A stretch of 36,225 nt of DNA from Lachnospiraceae bacterium (lineage in GTDB: Bacteria > Bacillota > Clostridia > Lachnospirales > Lachnospiraceae). A model generated the notes under the pieces. It saw nothing but the letters and a program-made list of their open reading frames with translations. It did not search any database and was not told the origin of the DNA. Both the position numbers and the translations under genes were made by a program. Positions 2,129-35,961 of the stretch are shown one piece after another; within the stretch, counting starts at the first letter, position 1, and the number at the start of each line of letters is the position of its first letter. The stretch spans positions 1-36,225 of the forward strand of contig SVEA01000123.1 in the NCBI GenBank assembly GCA_015057615.1. Direction: 5' to 3'.

Positions 2129-2424
2129 GATTTAAGTGTCAAAAGCCGATTTATAAAACCAACTTCATCAATTTGCACAATTTATGCATCGATAAGTAAT
2201 ATGAAACAAATTTCATATGCAACACGCAGTTCCGCAAAGCATTGCAAAAACGCAATACTTAGATTGAAGTACGTAATGGTACATAAGATCACAAAATACA
2301 TGGGTCTAAGTACCAACGACTTCAAACAGTTGCGTAAAATATTGTTTCCTATTACTTAAGTATTCCATTGATTTGTGCAAATTGACGAGGCCGATTTGTT
2401 AGAATAGCTTTTGACACTCAAATC
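2129..2424 (+). mobile_element. MITE-like palindromic element, family 1, copy A
   Basis: This ~296-bp non-coding element starts GATTTAAGTGTCAAAAG and ends CTTTTGACACTCAAATC, so the 17-bp ends are inverted repeats with one mismatch. The direct repeat AAAACT flanks it exactly (2123-2128 and 2425-2430), as a target-site duplication would. Nested inverted repeats run inward: CAATTTGCACAA/TTGTGCAAATTG, then AAGTAAT/ATTACTT, then a core hairpin at 2264-2325 (TTGAAGTACGTA to ACGACTTCAA). It has no open reading frame and no transposase. Related copies lie at 12452, 16349 and 20394 in the same orientation. Confidence 0.85.
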
Positions 2425-2488
2425 AAAACTGGTTGCTCTAATAAATCTATTGGAAATGTTATTTATACAAATAAGAAGGGATTACTAT

Positions 2489-12451: not shown

Positions 12452-12748
12452 GATATGAGTGACAAAAGCTGATTTATAAACTCGACTTCTTCAATTCATA
12501 ATATATGTGTTGACAAGTAATATGAAACAAATTTCATTCGCAACACGTTATTCCCAAAGCACTGCATAAAAAGCAGTACTTGAATTGAAGTACGTAGTGG
12601 TACATAAGACCACAAAATACGTGGTCTAAGTGCCAACGACTTCAAACAGTTGCAAATTTAAATTTTGTTTCCTATTACTTAAGTTTTTCCTTATTGGTGC
12701 AAATTGATGAAGAAGATGATTGTTAAGAAGGCTTTTGTCGGGGTAATT
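12452..12748 (+). mobile_element. MITE-like palindromic element, family 1, copy B
   Basis: This ~297-bp element begins GATATGAGTGACAAAAGC and ends with a decayed inverted copy (CTTTTGTCGGGGTAATT). The direct repeat ATAGAAT (12445-12451 and 12749-12755) flanks it as a target duplication. The internal arms match copy A: AAGTAATATGAAACAAATTT against AATTTTGTTTCCTATTACTT. The core hairpin (12585-12645) has a perfect six-base apical stem, GACCAC/GTGGTC (12608-12613, 12621-12626). It fills the spacer between the two flgK genes and contains no gene. Confidence 0.83.
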
Positions 12749-14670: not shown

Positions 14671-14700
14671 AGGTTTCACTTAAATTAAGGATGGAAATAT

Positions 14701-14820
14701 GATTAAGGTGTCAAAAGGTGCGTAGCACTTATTCTAATACAAGATATTGCTTGGTAAGCGAGCTTACACATCAATATCTTGTACCAGAATATCACCTTCG
14801 GAGCTTTTGACACCTTAATC
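14701..14820. mobile_element. Short MITE-like element with the family-1 ends
   Basis: This 120-bp palindrome has perfect 17-bp terminal inverted repeats (GATTAAGGTGTCAAAAG at 14701-14717, CTTTTGACACCTTAATC at 14804-14820). It is flanked by the direct repeat AAATAT (14695-14700 and 14821-14826). Inner arms TACAAGATATTG/CAATATCTTGTA and GTAAG/CTTAC close the hairpin. Its interior is unrelated to the 300-bp copies, but its ends belong to the same group and are identical to the sequence at 36211. It sits between flgK copy 2 and flgL. Confidence 0.88.
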
Positions 14821-14860
14821 AAATATACAAATCCAAATTCTTAAAACATGGAGGCATATT

Positions 14861-16348: not shown

Positions 16349-16632
16349 AGACGGTTTGTAAATTAGCTTCGTTAATTTGCACAATATATGTGTTGACAAG
16401 TAGTAACATGAAACAAATTTCATTCGCAACACGCAGTTCGGCAAAGCATTGCACAAAACGCAATCCTTGGATTGAAGTACGTAGTGGTACATAAGATCAT
16501 AAAACACATGATCTAAGTACCAACGACTTCAAACAGTTGCGCCTTAAAATATTGTTCCTGTTACCCCAGTTTTACCTTGATTTGTGCAAATTGATAAAGA
16601 CGATTTGTTAAGAAGGCTTTGACACTCATATC
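16349..16632 (+). mobile_element. MITE-like palindromic element, family 1, copy C
   Basis: The right end is intact (CTTTGACACTCATATC, 16617-16632), but the left terminal repeat is degenerate where it meets the flgL stop codon, so the left boundary is approximate and no target duplication is clear. The internal arms (AATTTGCACAA/TTGTGCAAATT) match copies A, B and D. The core hairpin (16472-16532) has the apical stem GATCAT/ATGATC (16495-16500, 16508-16513), which differs from copy B on both sides and still pairs perfectly. Confidence 0.8.
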
Positions 16633-18067: not shown

Positions 18068-20362
18068 ATGCCGGTACGAATGACAGGAATGATCTCTGGG
18101 ATGGATACCGAAACATTAATAAAAGGTATCGTAGATGCACAGAGATTAAAGAATAAAAGAGTAGAAGACAAGCAGACCTTGCTTGGATGGAAGCAAGACA
18201 AATGTAAAGAGTTAAATGCGAAGCTGTATAAGCTTTATACAGCGGACTTAGATAAAATGAGACTGAAATCTAGCTATATGGCGAAAAAAGTTTCATCAAC
18301 AAATGAGGATTTAGTCACTGTGAACTCGAAAGTAAATGCACCGGTAGGATCGCATGAGCTTACAATTGGTGCTTTGGCACGTTCACAGTATGTAACAAGC
18401 GGTGTAATTAAAATCGATGCCGATGGTGCGGCGACCGAAGCGAAAGCCTCTACCAAATTAACGGGGCTTGGTATTGAAGAAGGAACCCTAATTAATCTTA
18501 CCAGTGATGGAAAGACCGCAACCTTAGAGGTTACAAATGAAACAACGCTCGCTAATTTTGTTGATTTTGCAAAAGGTGCCGGCTATAGCGCCAATTTCGA
18601 TGAGACCTATGGAAGACTTTTTATAAGCGCTAAGTCAAGTGGTACAAAGAATGCTTTCCAGATCACGGCGACCACTTCAACTGCAACGGCTCCTAAAAAT
18701 GAATTATTAACCTTAACAGGGTATTCCTATCTTAACGCAGAGGATAAGAAAAAAGTTGATGCCGCAATCGCGACTCTTGCAGCTGAGGAAGTGAAAGAGG
18801 GAGAGGAACAGAGCGAAGCAGCCAAAGCGGCGATAGATAAATTGAAGGAATTTGCAGAAATAGAAGCCAAAAGAATCATTGCCAGTAACGTTGATAAAGA
18901 AATCAGAGCGGAGGTCGTTCCTCGTGCCGAAGAGAAAGAAATAAATAGAATTAAGGATCAGGTATTAAAAGAGTATCTAGAAGAGCATGAGGTTACAGAG
19001 GGCGAACTGACGGATGAACAAAAAAAAGAGCTCGAAAAATTACAGGATGAAAGAATAGCAGCTTCTACTAATCAGATCAACTATGCTATTAAAGATGCGG
19101 TTAACAAAGCAATAGCAGAAGAAAAAGGGAAAGAAGAACCGAACCGATATACATTAGCTGAAGAGGCAAACCAGACCGTTATCACGAATGCTATGAATCA
19201 GACTGGTACGGTAGCGGTAACCTATCAGACCAACAGTAAAACAGCCCAAACAGATGTCAGCTCCAGGTTACAGAAAATCGGTTTGGATGCACTTGATGAG
19301 AATGGAAACATAGTTGATAAAGATATAATCAGTAAAGATGGAAAAATAATCGGTAGAATCGATAAGGATGGAAATAGAATCGATGAAAATGGAATTGTAA
19401 TCGGTAGAATCGATAAGGATGGAAACATAATTGATGAAGATGGAAGCGTAATCGGTAGAATCGAAGATGGAAACGTAATCGATAAAGATGGAAACGTAAT
19501 CGGTACATACAGTCAAGCATCTACCATTATAAGAGCAGAGGACAGCAAGATTACATATAACGGCGTGGAATATACTAATTCCTCCAATGTGATTAATATC
19601 AATGGACTGGAACTTACCTTGAACGGAGTGTCAAATGGTGAGACCGTCCACTTAAATGTATCGAATAATTCGCAGGGTGTCTATGATACTATAAAAAAAT
19701 TCATTTCCTCGTACAATGATATTTTAAAAGAGATGAATGATTTATATTATGCCGATTCTACCAGAGGCTATGATCCGCTAAGCGATGATGAAAAGGCAGC
19801 GATGACAGACAAGCAAATTGAAAAATGGGAAGATAAGATCAAGGATTCCATTCTAAGGAGAGACAGTACCTTAGGTTCTTTGCTTGATGCTATGAAAAAT
19901 GCGATGCTGTCTTCTGTGGAAGTTGACGGAAGTAACTACTCCTTATCTAGTTTTGGAATTCTGACCTCCAAGAGCTATTCAGAAAAAGGATTGTTGCACA
20001 TTCATGGTAATGAGGATGATCCTGGTTATGCATCGATGGAAGATAAACTTATGAAAGCGTTGGAGGAGGACCCGGATACCGTTATGGAGGTAATGTCACA
20101 GGTTTCGCAGAAACTTTATGATACCATGCATGAGAAAATGAAATCAATTCCAAATATCCGAAGCGCATTCACCTTTTATAATGATAAAGAGATGGCGAAA
20201 CAACACACAGAGTATGCCAAAAAAATTGCTAAACTGGAGAAAAAAGTAATAGAACTGGAAAGTAAATATTATAAGCAATTTGCTGCCATGGAATCGGCTA
20301 TGGCTAAGATGCAGTCGCAAAGCAATGCTCTTGCTGGAATGCTTGGAGTATCGAATAAATAA
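18068..20362 (+). CDS. fliD: Filament cap protein FliD (HAP2), enlarged
   Basis: This 764-aa protein has the FliD N-terminus (RMTGMISGMDTETLIKGIV), a FliD_C region (KFISSYNDILKEMNDLYYADS, SLSSFGILTSKSYSEKGLLHIHG) and a long C-terminal coil with AMESAMAKMQSQSNALAGML. Many Firmicute FliD proteins are shorter (about 450-650 aa). Two extra parts explain the length: a charged helical insert at about residues 224-370 (Glu/Lys-rich) and a short-repeat block at about 410-480. FliD caps the growing filament and folds arriving flagellin. GGAGAAAGGAG precedes the ATG. It lies downstream of flaG and upstream of fliS, with MITE-like copy D after it. Confidence 0.93.
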   Translation: MPVRMTGMISGMDTETLIKGIVDAQRLKNKRVEDKQTLLGWKQDKCKELNAKLYKLYTADLDKMRLKSSYMAKKVSSTNEDLVTVNSKVNAPVGSHELTIGALARSQYVTSGVIKIDADGAATEAKASTKLTGLGIEEGTLINLTSDGKTATLEVTNETTLANFVDFAKGAGYSANFDETYGRLFISAKSSGTKNAFQITATTSTATAPKNELLTLTGYSYLNAEDKKKVDAAIATLAAEEVKEGEEQSEAAKAAIDKLKEFAEIEAKRIIASNVDKEIRAEVVPRAEEKEINRIKDQVLKEYLEEHEVTEGELTDEQKKELEKLQDERIAASTNQINYAIKDAVNKAIAEEKGKEEPNRYTLAEEANQTVITNAMNQTGTVAVTYQTNSKTAQTDVSSRLQKIGLDALDENGNIVDKDIISKDGKIIGRIDKDGNRIDENGIVIGRIDKDGNIIDEDGSVIGRIEDGNVIDKDGNVIGTYSQASTIIRAEDSKITYNGVEYTNSSNVININGLELTLNGVSNGETVHLNVSNNSQGVYDTIKKFISSYNDILKEMNDLYYADSTRGYDPLSDDEKAAMTDKQIEKWEDKIKDSILRRDSTLGSLLDAMKNAMLSSVEVDGSNYSLSSFGILTSKSYSEKGLLHIHGNEDDPGYASMEDKLMKALEEDPDTVMEVMSQVSQKLYDTMHEKMKSIPNIRSAFTFYNDKEMAKQHTEYAKKIAKLEKKVIELESKYYKQFAAMESAMAKMQSQSNALAGMLGVSNK
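19295..19509 (+). repeat. In-frame short tandem repeats inside fliD
   Basis: The stretch codes for repeated units of the form IGRIDKDGN-xIDE(N/D)G-x-V (GRIDKDGNRIDENG, GRIDKDGNIIDEDG, GRIEDGNVIDKDG). At the DNA level GGTAGAATCGATAAGGATGGAAA recurs nearly unchanged at 19351 and 19402, with partial copies on both sides. Units of 21-24 residues alternate with half units. The recent-looking DNA identity suggests expansion by slippage or unequal recombination, always in frame. Confidence 0.85.
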
Positions 20363-20393: not shown

Positions 20394-20690
20394 GATTTAA
20401 GTGTCAAATCCAGTTTATAAAACTACCTTAATCAATTTGTACAATTTATGTATTGATAAGTAATAAGGAAAACATATTTCAATCGCAACACGTGTTCCCC
20501 CAAGTATTGCAAAAAACGCAATACTTGGGTTGAAGTACGTAACGGTACATAAGACCACAAAATACGTGATCTAAGTACTAACGACTTCAAACAGTTGCAA
20601 ATTAAAATATTGTTTCCTATTACTTAAGTTTTTCCTTGATTGTGCAAATTGATGAAGACTATTTGTTTGGAAGAATTTGGTACTCATATC
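20394..20690 (+). mobile_element. MITE-like palindromic element, family 1, copy D
   Basis: It begins GATTTAAGTGTCAAA and ends with a decayed TTTGGTACTCATATC; AAATAT flanks it (20387-20392, one base from the left end, and 20691-20696). Inner arms ATCAATTTGTACAA/TTGTGCAAATTGAT and AAGTAATA/TATTACTT pair as in the other copies. The core hairpin is at 20530-20590. It fills the fliD-fliS spacer and contains no gene. Confidence 0.82.
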
Positions 20691-35726: not shown

Positions 35727-35750
35727 TTCTTATTTTGACCCAGTCATAGG

Positions 35751-35953
35751 GTTACTGTTCACACATGGGTAAAGTCTATAATATGATTTCGACGAATGAT
35801 ATCCGATAAGGAGTATTTCATTCGTTGGTACTTTGGCTCCGTATTTCGGAGCCTTATGTACCGCTACGTAATGCAACTAAGCGAAAGCGTCTCCGATTCG
35901 GATACATTTGACGAAATCATAACATGGTATACATGGTGGGTGTGAACAGTAAC
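35751..35953. mobile_element. MITE-like palindromic element, family 2
   Basis: The ends GTTACTGTTCACAC (35751-35764) and GTGTGAACAGTAAC (35940-35953) are perfect 14-bp inverted repeats. TCATAGG occurs on both sides (35744-35750 and 35955-35961, one base off on the right), probably a target duplication. Arms ATGATTTCG…ATATCCGAT and ATCGGAT…CGAAATCAT fold inward onto the hairpin GGCTCCG/CGGAGCC (35835-35841, 35847-35853). No gene inside. The core 35823-35870 is homologous, in inverse orientation, to the core of family 1. Confidence 0.82.
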
Positions 35954-35961
35954 ATCATAGG

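Follow-up and report, generated by a model that had tools for sequence, protein, structure and literature searches.

The elements analysed here form a large family of short dispersed units in which a long inverted-repeat stem, P1, is capped by one conserved core. As the ends of these units and the lengths of their target-site duplications (TSDs) differ, and as pairs of terminal inverted repeats (TIRs) of the F1 type exist that enclose no core, we conclude that two transposition systems at least, and probably three, have carried the core as a passenger. Two of the carrier families, F1 and F2, are represented in the window, the whole stretch of 36,225 nucleotides under study (Table 1). The initial annotation had reported five cores of common order here, and all five were recovered at their places as covariance-model matches, with the apical stems that it quoted (GACCAC/GTGGTC, GATCAT/ATGATC and GGCTCCG/CGGAGCC) present in the sequence. 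Its proposal that families with unrelated ends share a homologous core holds, as F1 and F2 are joined by one 63-bp match (77.8%, E 7e-7); every further match in the full-length comparison had E ≥0.25, so that F2 is not a rearranged F1. The observation was thus correct and its extent is greater than first reported. The hairpin that had been taken as the conserved unit is present, but it is the apical part only of a larger conserved fold.

Table 1. Positions and parts of the F1 and F2 elements in the window
Feature	Position	Strand	Details
F2 miniature element	35751..35953	+	203 bp; perfect 14-bp TIRs at either end
F2 left target duplication, GTCATAGG	35743..35750		8 bp
F2 right target duplication, ATCATAGG	35954..35961		8 bp, one mismatch to the left copy
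F2 conserved core	35802..35898	+	match to model R1, 83.6 bits, E 1.2e-19
F2 P2 arm, CGT-T-GGTAC / GTACC-GCT-ACG	35823..35868	+	apical stem GGCTCCG/CGGAGCC, loop TATTT
F2 P3, GNRA hairpin GC-GAAA-GC	35879..35890	+	from sequence and loop counts
F1 copy A, complete	2129..2424	-	296 bp; TIRs GATTTAAGTGTCAAAAG / CTTTTGACACTCAAATC
F1 copy A TSD, AAAACT	2123-2128 and 2425-2430		on both flanks
F1 copy A core	2242..2338	-	covariance model, 66.6 bits
F1 copy B core	12565..12658	-	left TIR 12452-12468, 3 mismatches; right end not found
F1 copy C core	16452..16545	-	right TIR 16616-16632, 4 mismatches; left end not found
F1 copy D core	20510..20603	-	left TIR 20394-20410, 2 mismatches

The TIRs of F1 copy A are 17 bp long with one mismatch between the ends. 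In each of copies B, C and D one or both ends are too degenerate for placement, the right end of copy D lying perhaps at 20674-20690 with 6 mismatches. Other repeats of the window are CRISPR-like arrays at 38-1495, with repeats of ~32 nt of which the variants GTCGCTCCCCTCGCGGGAGC... and GTCACTCCCCTTGCGGGAGT... adjoin, four tandem repeats of ~51 nt (19316-19516) within the ORF at 18068-20362, and a long palindrome between two ORFs at 14692-14829, with 68-nt arms that are 78% complementary and a 2-nt spacer.

The extent of the conserved core, ~90 nt, was recognised by aligning cores from other genera. It comprises the P2 arm with its fixed irregularities, the GNRA-capped hairpin P3 and the long basal stem P1, and it carries near-invariant unpaired bases. 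P2 typically reads CGY-Y-GGTAC ... GTACC-R-YT-ACG, has a T-rich loop and an apical stem that covaries; the junction of P1, P2 and P3 was drawn by RNAfold in many of the printed folds, which were left uncounted. The F1 copies of the window's own genome have a longer P3 hairpin without GNRA (e.g. window 2242-2338), and at one locus (L366, G000:C60:4600-4960) an F2 copy has lost the 3' side of P2 together with the apical hairpin, its P3 and ends being kept. A tree of the cores resolves poorly, with 10 of 106 inner branches starred.

Compensated change in the stem, on which the initial annotation had relied, exceeded shuffled controls in two alignments. In the alignment of the window's family (A3; 111 distinct rows among 115 model-aligned matches) 92.3% of the cells are paired and double-sided change is seen in 23 of 25 pairs; the covariation score is 0.606, against 0.183 (sd 0.007) for shuffled rows and 0.063-0.110 for slid partners. 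The alignment of a second class (A4, 41 matches, 39 distinct) has 90.1% paired cells, double-sided change in 18 of 25 pairs and a score of 0.476, against 0.177 for shuffled rows and 0.044-0.095 for slid partners. Two apical column pairs never pair in the second class, so its apical stem is different or misaligned. Of five covariation measures one, 'further pair types', does not exceed shuffles, 194 and 333 of 500 of which reach the observed value. Model R1 was built from 40 sequences whose seeds were fetched by an exact pattern, and the conservation of those letters in alignments A1 and A2 is therefore by construction; for A3, 39 of 100 sources came via the exact pattern and the others via the model search, from which A4 derives wholly. 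Fitting the alignments to the structure, with related rows, favours the structure, and as the rows are related and were partly fetched by exact pattern, the paired percentages and the p-values given below are optimistic.

The suggestion that compensated change bespeaks selection on a folded RNA or single-stranded DNA is weakened: compensation alone is insufficient, P1 being paired likewise. It is the GNRA loop of the core, with its strand-asymmetric mismatches, that speaks for RNA. A stem selected as RNA should tolerate G-U more than A-C, and the two stems were compared on this basis, using 104 unique rows of the window's family and 38 of the other order that remained of A3 and A4 after near-identical rows were removed. 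Over the 16 pairs of P2, G-U outnumbers A-C by 20 to 7 in the family (p 0.019) and by 11 to 2 in the other order (p 0.022). In P1 the two are about equal (361:341, p 0.47; 114 copies, either strand folded in turn). GNRA loops cap P3 in 100 of the 104 family rows and in all 38 of the other order. A separate scan found GNNA loops in 20 of 57 copies of the own genome, 126 of 148 other copies of the family and all 18 of the other order; their second base is variable, and a purine stands third in all 164 of these loops. As the own genome has so few GNNA loops and its F1 copies have a P3 without GNRA, the GNRA loop is not indispensable. The GNRA loop and the G-U excess of P2, set against the equality in P1, lead us to consider the core strand-specifically constrained and P1 not. 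P1 looks maintained at the DNA level and the core looks selected as RNA or as one DNA strand.

The history of the arms differs from that of the core. In three genomes of other genera, G225, G153 and G180 (10, 8 and 7 copies), the left arms, compared between copies, are near shuffled similarity (medians 0.60 vs 0.58, 0.64 vs 0.60 and 0.58 vs 0.54, respectively), and still 17-38 of 45 arm bases find a partner in the opposite arm; identity between the cores is 0.79, 0.86 and 0.77. Among eight orthologues in sister species, two (236/301 and 239/309) have arms of 0.55-0.68, cores of 0.93 and 0.99 and a P1 that is still paired, one has intermediate arms (0.75-0.78) and five have arms of 0.82-1.0; the pair 230/302 shows a double A-T to T-A change. 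Template switching is described as able to create and to repair stems (PMC8794818), and for the replacement of P1 in both arms we consider it the likeliest process. Two copies are absent from a sister genome, one upstream of rapZ, where the difference is 183 bp with no clear duplication, and one between rmlB and rmlA, along with nearly the whole intergenic region. The idea that P1 is copied from the target flank finds no support at these sites, both rapZ arms lying within the 183-bp difference and nearly all of the rmlB-rmlA intergenic region differing. Since repeat families with unrelated ends carry it, something about the fold seems to be retained independently of the machinery that moves the elements.

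In the window's own 4.07-Mb genome the exact flank pattern CGTTGGTACTT-N(4-30)-CTTATGTACC has 118 matches and the reversed pattern none, which excludes chance as the source of the core pattern. Copy numbers per genome are lower bounds: the F2 query and the F1 query each found at least 40 places, mostly full length, and 150 of 150 scored candidates match model R1, i.e., at least 150 places. R1 also has 91 matches in 778 kb including the window, a density that is overstated as these sequences were selected for holding copies. Both families have the terminal inverted repeats and target-site duplication by which MITEs are recognised. Among 17 two-ended F2 copies, with ends GTTACTGTTCACAC, the 8-bp flanks are identical in 7 and differ by at most one mismatch in 11, compared with 4 of 272 for mismatched partners. 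The 25 two-ended F1 copies, with GATTTGAGTGTCAAAAG-type ends, have with at most one mismatch a 6-bp TSD in 13 cases and a 7-bp TSD in 6 (controls, 20/600 and 2/600). Other genera have ends of a third class, of TAGGTAATTGCGAAACTC type, with duplications of ~9-12 bp. Based on ends and TSD length we infer that different transposases moved F1 and F2, and as coreless F1-type TIR pairs of 74 and 96 bp exist, the core is seemingly unneeded for F1 movement. The earlier suggestion of a passenger moved by different transposases would agree with the unrelated ends and differing TSD lengths. The 778 kb scanned for F1 or F2 TIR pairs yielded no autonomous element with such ends and no cognate transposase, and exact TIRs listed genome-wide, together with 20 stretches around TIRs, several of which are cut by contig ends, gave only short, coreless, broken or contig-end copies. 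Of 115 rows, 78 have no TIR of the three classes within about 190-200 bp.

Some loci hold more than one core. A tandem array of four with a 148-bp period occupies 272-762 of L267 (G110), and pairs in opposite orientation ~60-370 bp apart recur in several genomes (L142 2115-2676, L122 2609-3042, L073, L088, L197, L402, L416 and L421), that of L142 lying between genes that by eye are leuC-like and lysR-like. A transposase gene between paired cores was sought by eye in four two-core loci with listed ORFs and none was seen. Elsewhere, an ORF that by eye resembles an IS91-type transposase (L344, 6463-7638) lies a few hundred bases away from an F1 copy.

Orientation was scored relative to ORFs of at least 100 codons for 84 of the 91 R1 matches, the 7 weakest being dropped. 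Between co-directional neighbours the F1 copies of the own genome are antisense in 31 cases and sense in 5 (p 1.3e-5), whereas F2 copies are sense in 8 and antisense in 3 (p 0.23); as the two families disagree, orientation seemingly follows the carrier and not the core. F1 also lies against GC skew (44:12), yet among the 13 copies between convergent or divergent genes the ratio is 7:6, which speaks against replication strand as the cause, and transcription, not replication, seems to drive the F1 bias. Since F1 is antisense, the strand of the core is usually outside the flanking mRNA, and this counts against a role in cis in readthrough transcripts. In other genomes, the copies for which no TIR was recognised are sense in 17 cases, antisense in 23, convergent in 4, divergent in 5, within an ORF in 5 and at an edge in 13, and these counts contradict the idea of a 5' leader.

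The search of related genomes with covariance models found the core widely in its own family and, in addition, in a second class. With one genome per genus and E 1e-4, R1 matched 79 and the broader model R2 88 of 200 genera of the family; named records with the exact pattern include, among the matches listed, Anaerocolumna, Anaerosporobacter, Herbinix, Mobilitalea and Butyrivibrio. Of 391 genomes drawn from the class, 11 matched, every one from the window's own family (16 genomes of which were listed), and none was found outside it. R2 matched 5 genomes in a draw of 398 of the phylum (E 1e-3), namely 4 of the family and one, G968, of another class; within the order of G968 there were matches in 18 of 151 genomes and in 2 of 30 genera (E 1e-3). 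G968 is probably a negativicute, judging by an autotransporter-like ORF recognised by eye on one stretch. Many cores also occur in a MAG labelled Bacteroidales (JAMPFJ records; L082, L103 and L116), a public label that looks wrong.

Taken together, we propose that two transposases, supplied in trans, would have copied one passenger core around the own genome. On the strand drawn here the core would act as a folded RNA, as the strand-specific changes are confined to it, with a single DNA strand as second choice. The self-complementarity of P1 would be kept at the DNA level, by TIR function in the MITEs and by template switching or a similar process in copies with a unique stem. That part of the proposal which concerns carriers, passenger and RNA domain we hold to be likely; for the explanation as a whole our confidence is slightly better than even. 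It is conceivable that the RNA forms as transcription crosses the element and binds a host factor common to these bacteria, so that insertions are tolerated, much as the intron of IStrons is said to make insertions harmless; this function, our pick among several, is speculative and we think it rather unlikely. We give a little less credence still to the thought that, in two bacterial classes, it is the core itself that truly replicates: as a functional RNA it would hop between carriers, having been captured by several transposon types, and would otherwise be re-established at every site with a new self-complementary stem.

Substrates of single-stranded DNA transposases have bulged or mismatched bases, a T-rich loop and strand specificity, and the core resembles them in its bulges, mismatches, T-rich loop and strand specificity. 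It could accordingly be a DNA hairpin cut strand-specifically by an enzyme of HUH/Y1 type that moves the elements or once did so, the MITE ends being later carriers. The 78 rows of 115 without any TIR class and the rapZ site without a clear target duplication would fit, and GC-GAAA-GC forms a stable hairpin as DNA too. However, F1 and F2 have TIRs and duplications of 6-8 bp of the DDE type, the inspected pairs of cores enclose no transposase-like ORF, and the third loop base is a purine in every GNNA loop scored, although a DNA loop rule would permit pyrimidines there. We therefore regard this reading as improbable, and prefer the folded RNA.

Lower again we rate two further readings. The pairing might be a mutational by-product, template switching at inverted repeats (a published mechanism, PMC8794818) keeping the stems perfect with no selection on the fold. 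Arms near chance identity within genomes, the two orthologues whose diverged arms still pair beneath conserved cores, and the equality of G-U and A-C in P1 are what it would predict, but it leaves the near-invariant unpaired bases, the GNRA rule and the G-U excess of P2 unexplained and is already insufficient for the core; moreover, the five orthologues with similar arms imply that turnover is not general at sister-species distance. It is just as hard to believe that the element is a cis-regulatory leader or an intercistronic mRNA element of the flanking genes. By eye, copies in G153 and G225 do lie sense, just upstream of ribosome-binding sites (fabF-[element]-fabZ, tpiA, rapZ and rmlA), yet the flanking genes differ between copies, TIR-less copies of other genomes are no more often sense than antisense, and F1 is predominantly antisense in its own genome. 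The reading of a passenger RNA on a DNA-maintained stem thus remains the one that we favour.

Should the core be a selected RNA, it would be a conserved passenger that several unrelated miniature transposons share, found in 88 of 200 sampled genera of one family and in a second class, and one may then ask what a transposon gains from a folded RNA cargo for which its transposase seems to have no need. A stem apparently kept at the DNA level beside one selected in an RNA-like manner is also a natural case that bears on the reading of covariation.

The statement that no described family matches holds for Rfam and the literature searched: the window had no Rfam match at gathering score, none of 12 loci had one overlapping the element at E ≤1 (three matches lie elsewhere), and no paper among those searched was recognised as describing it. 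Prokaryote MITEs as characterised in PMC10969869 are alike in size (<500 bp), TIRs, direct repeats, AT-rich intergenic sites and predicted stable stem-loop transcripts; they are defined by their ends, whereas here one core is common to families that differ in ends and TSD length, and many of its copies are without any of the three TIR classes. IStrons (PMC4227781) likewise have a structured RNA travelling with DNA transposons, but theirs is a group I intron, none of which was found by Rfam in the window. REP/BIME palindromes (PMC2817692, PMC3733652) are also high-copy, intergenic and sometimes arranged in inverted pairs; here the fold is larger, its conservation is at the tip and it is carried in elements with TIRs.

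The nearest described kinds are the bcr repeats of Bacillus cereus and the mobile/repeat candidates of PMC11109978, a 2024 survey that counts 250 such structured candidates. The repeats bcr1-bcr18 of the B. cereus group (PMC3446304, PMC6542083) are dispersed, some of them MITE-like, in UTRs or within operons, and bcr10 and bcr18 have conserved RNA secondary structure; as described there, they belong to one species group, MITE-like and RNA-like repeats are separate families and a TTTAT-type mechanism is proposed. MRSC-65-2 and the other mobile/repeat candidates share with our elements high copy number, strong covariation, inconsistent gene orientation and the undecided choice between RNA and DNA form (PMC11109978). 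MRSC-65-2 is depicted as one long stem with a UYCCGG repeat, in contrast to the junction and GNRA hairpin found here; by eye, the column consensus of our 104 unique rows lacks that repeat and has a second hairpin. Set beside the kinds compared here, our elements are distinguished by a single fold that carriers with unrelated ends have in common, in several genera and in two classes.
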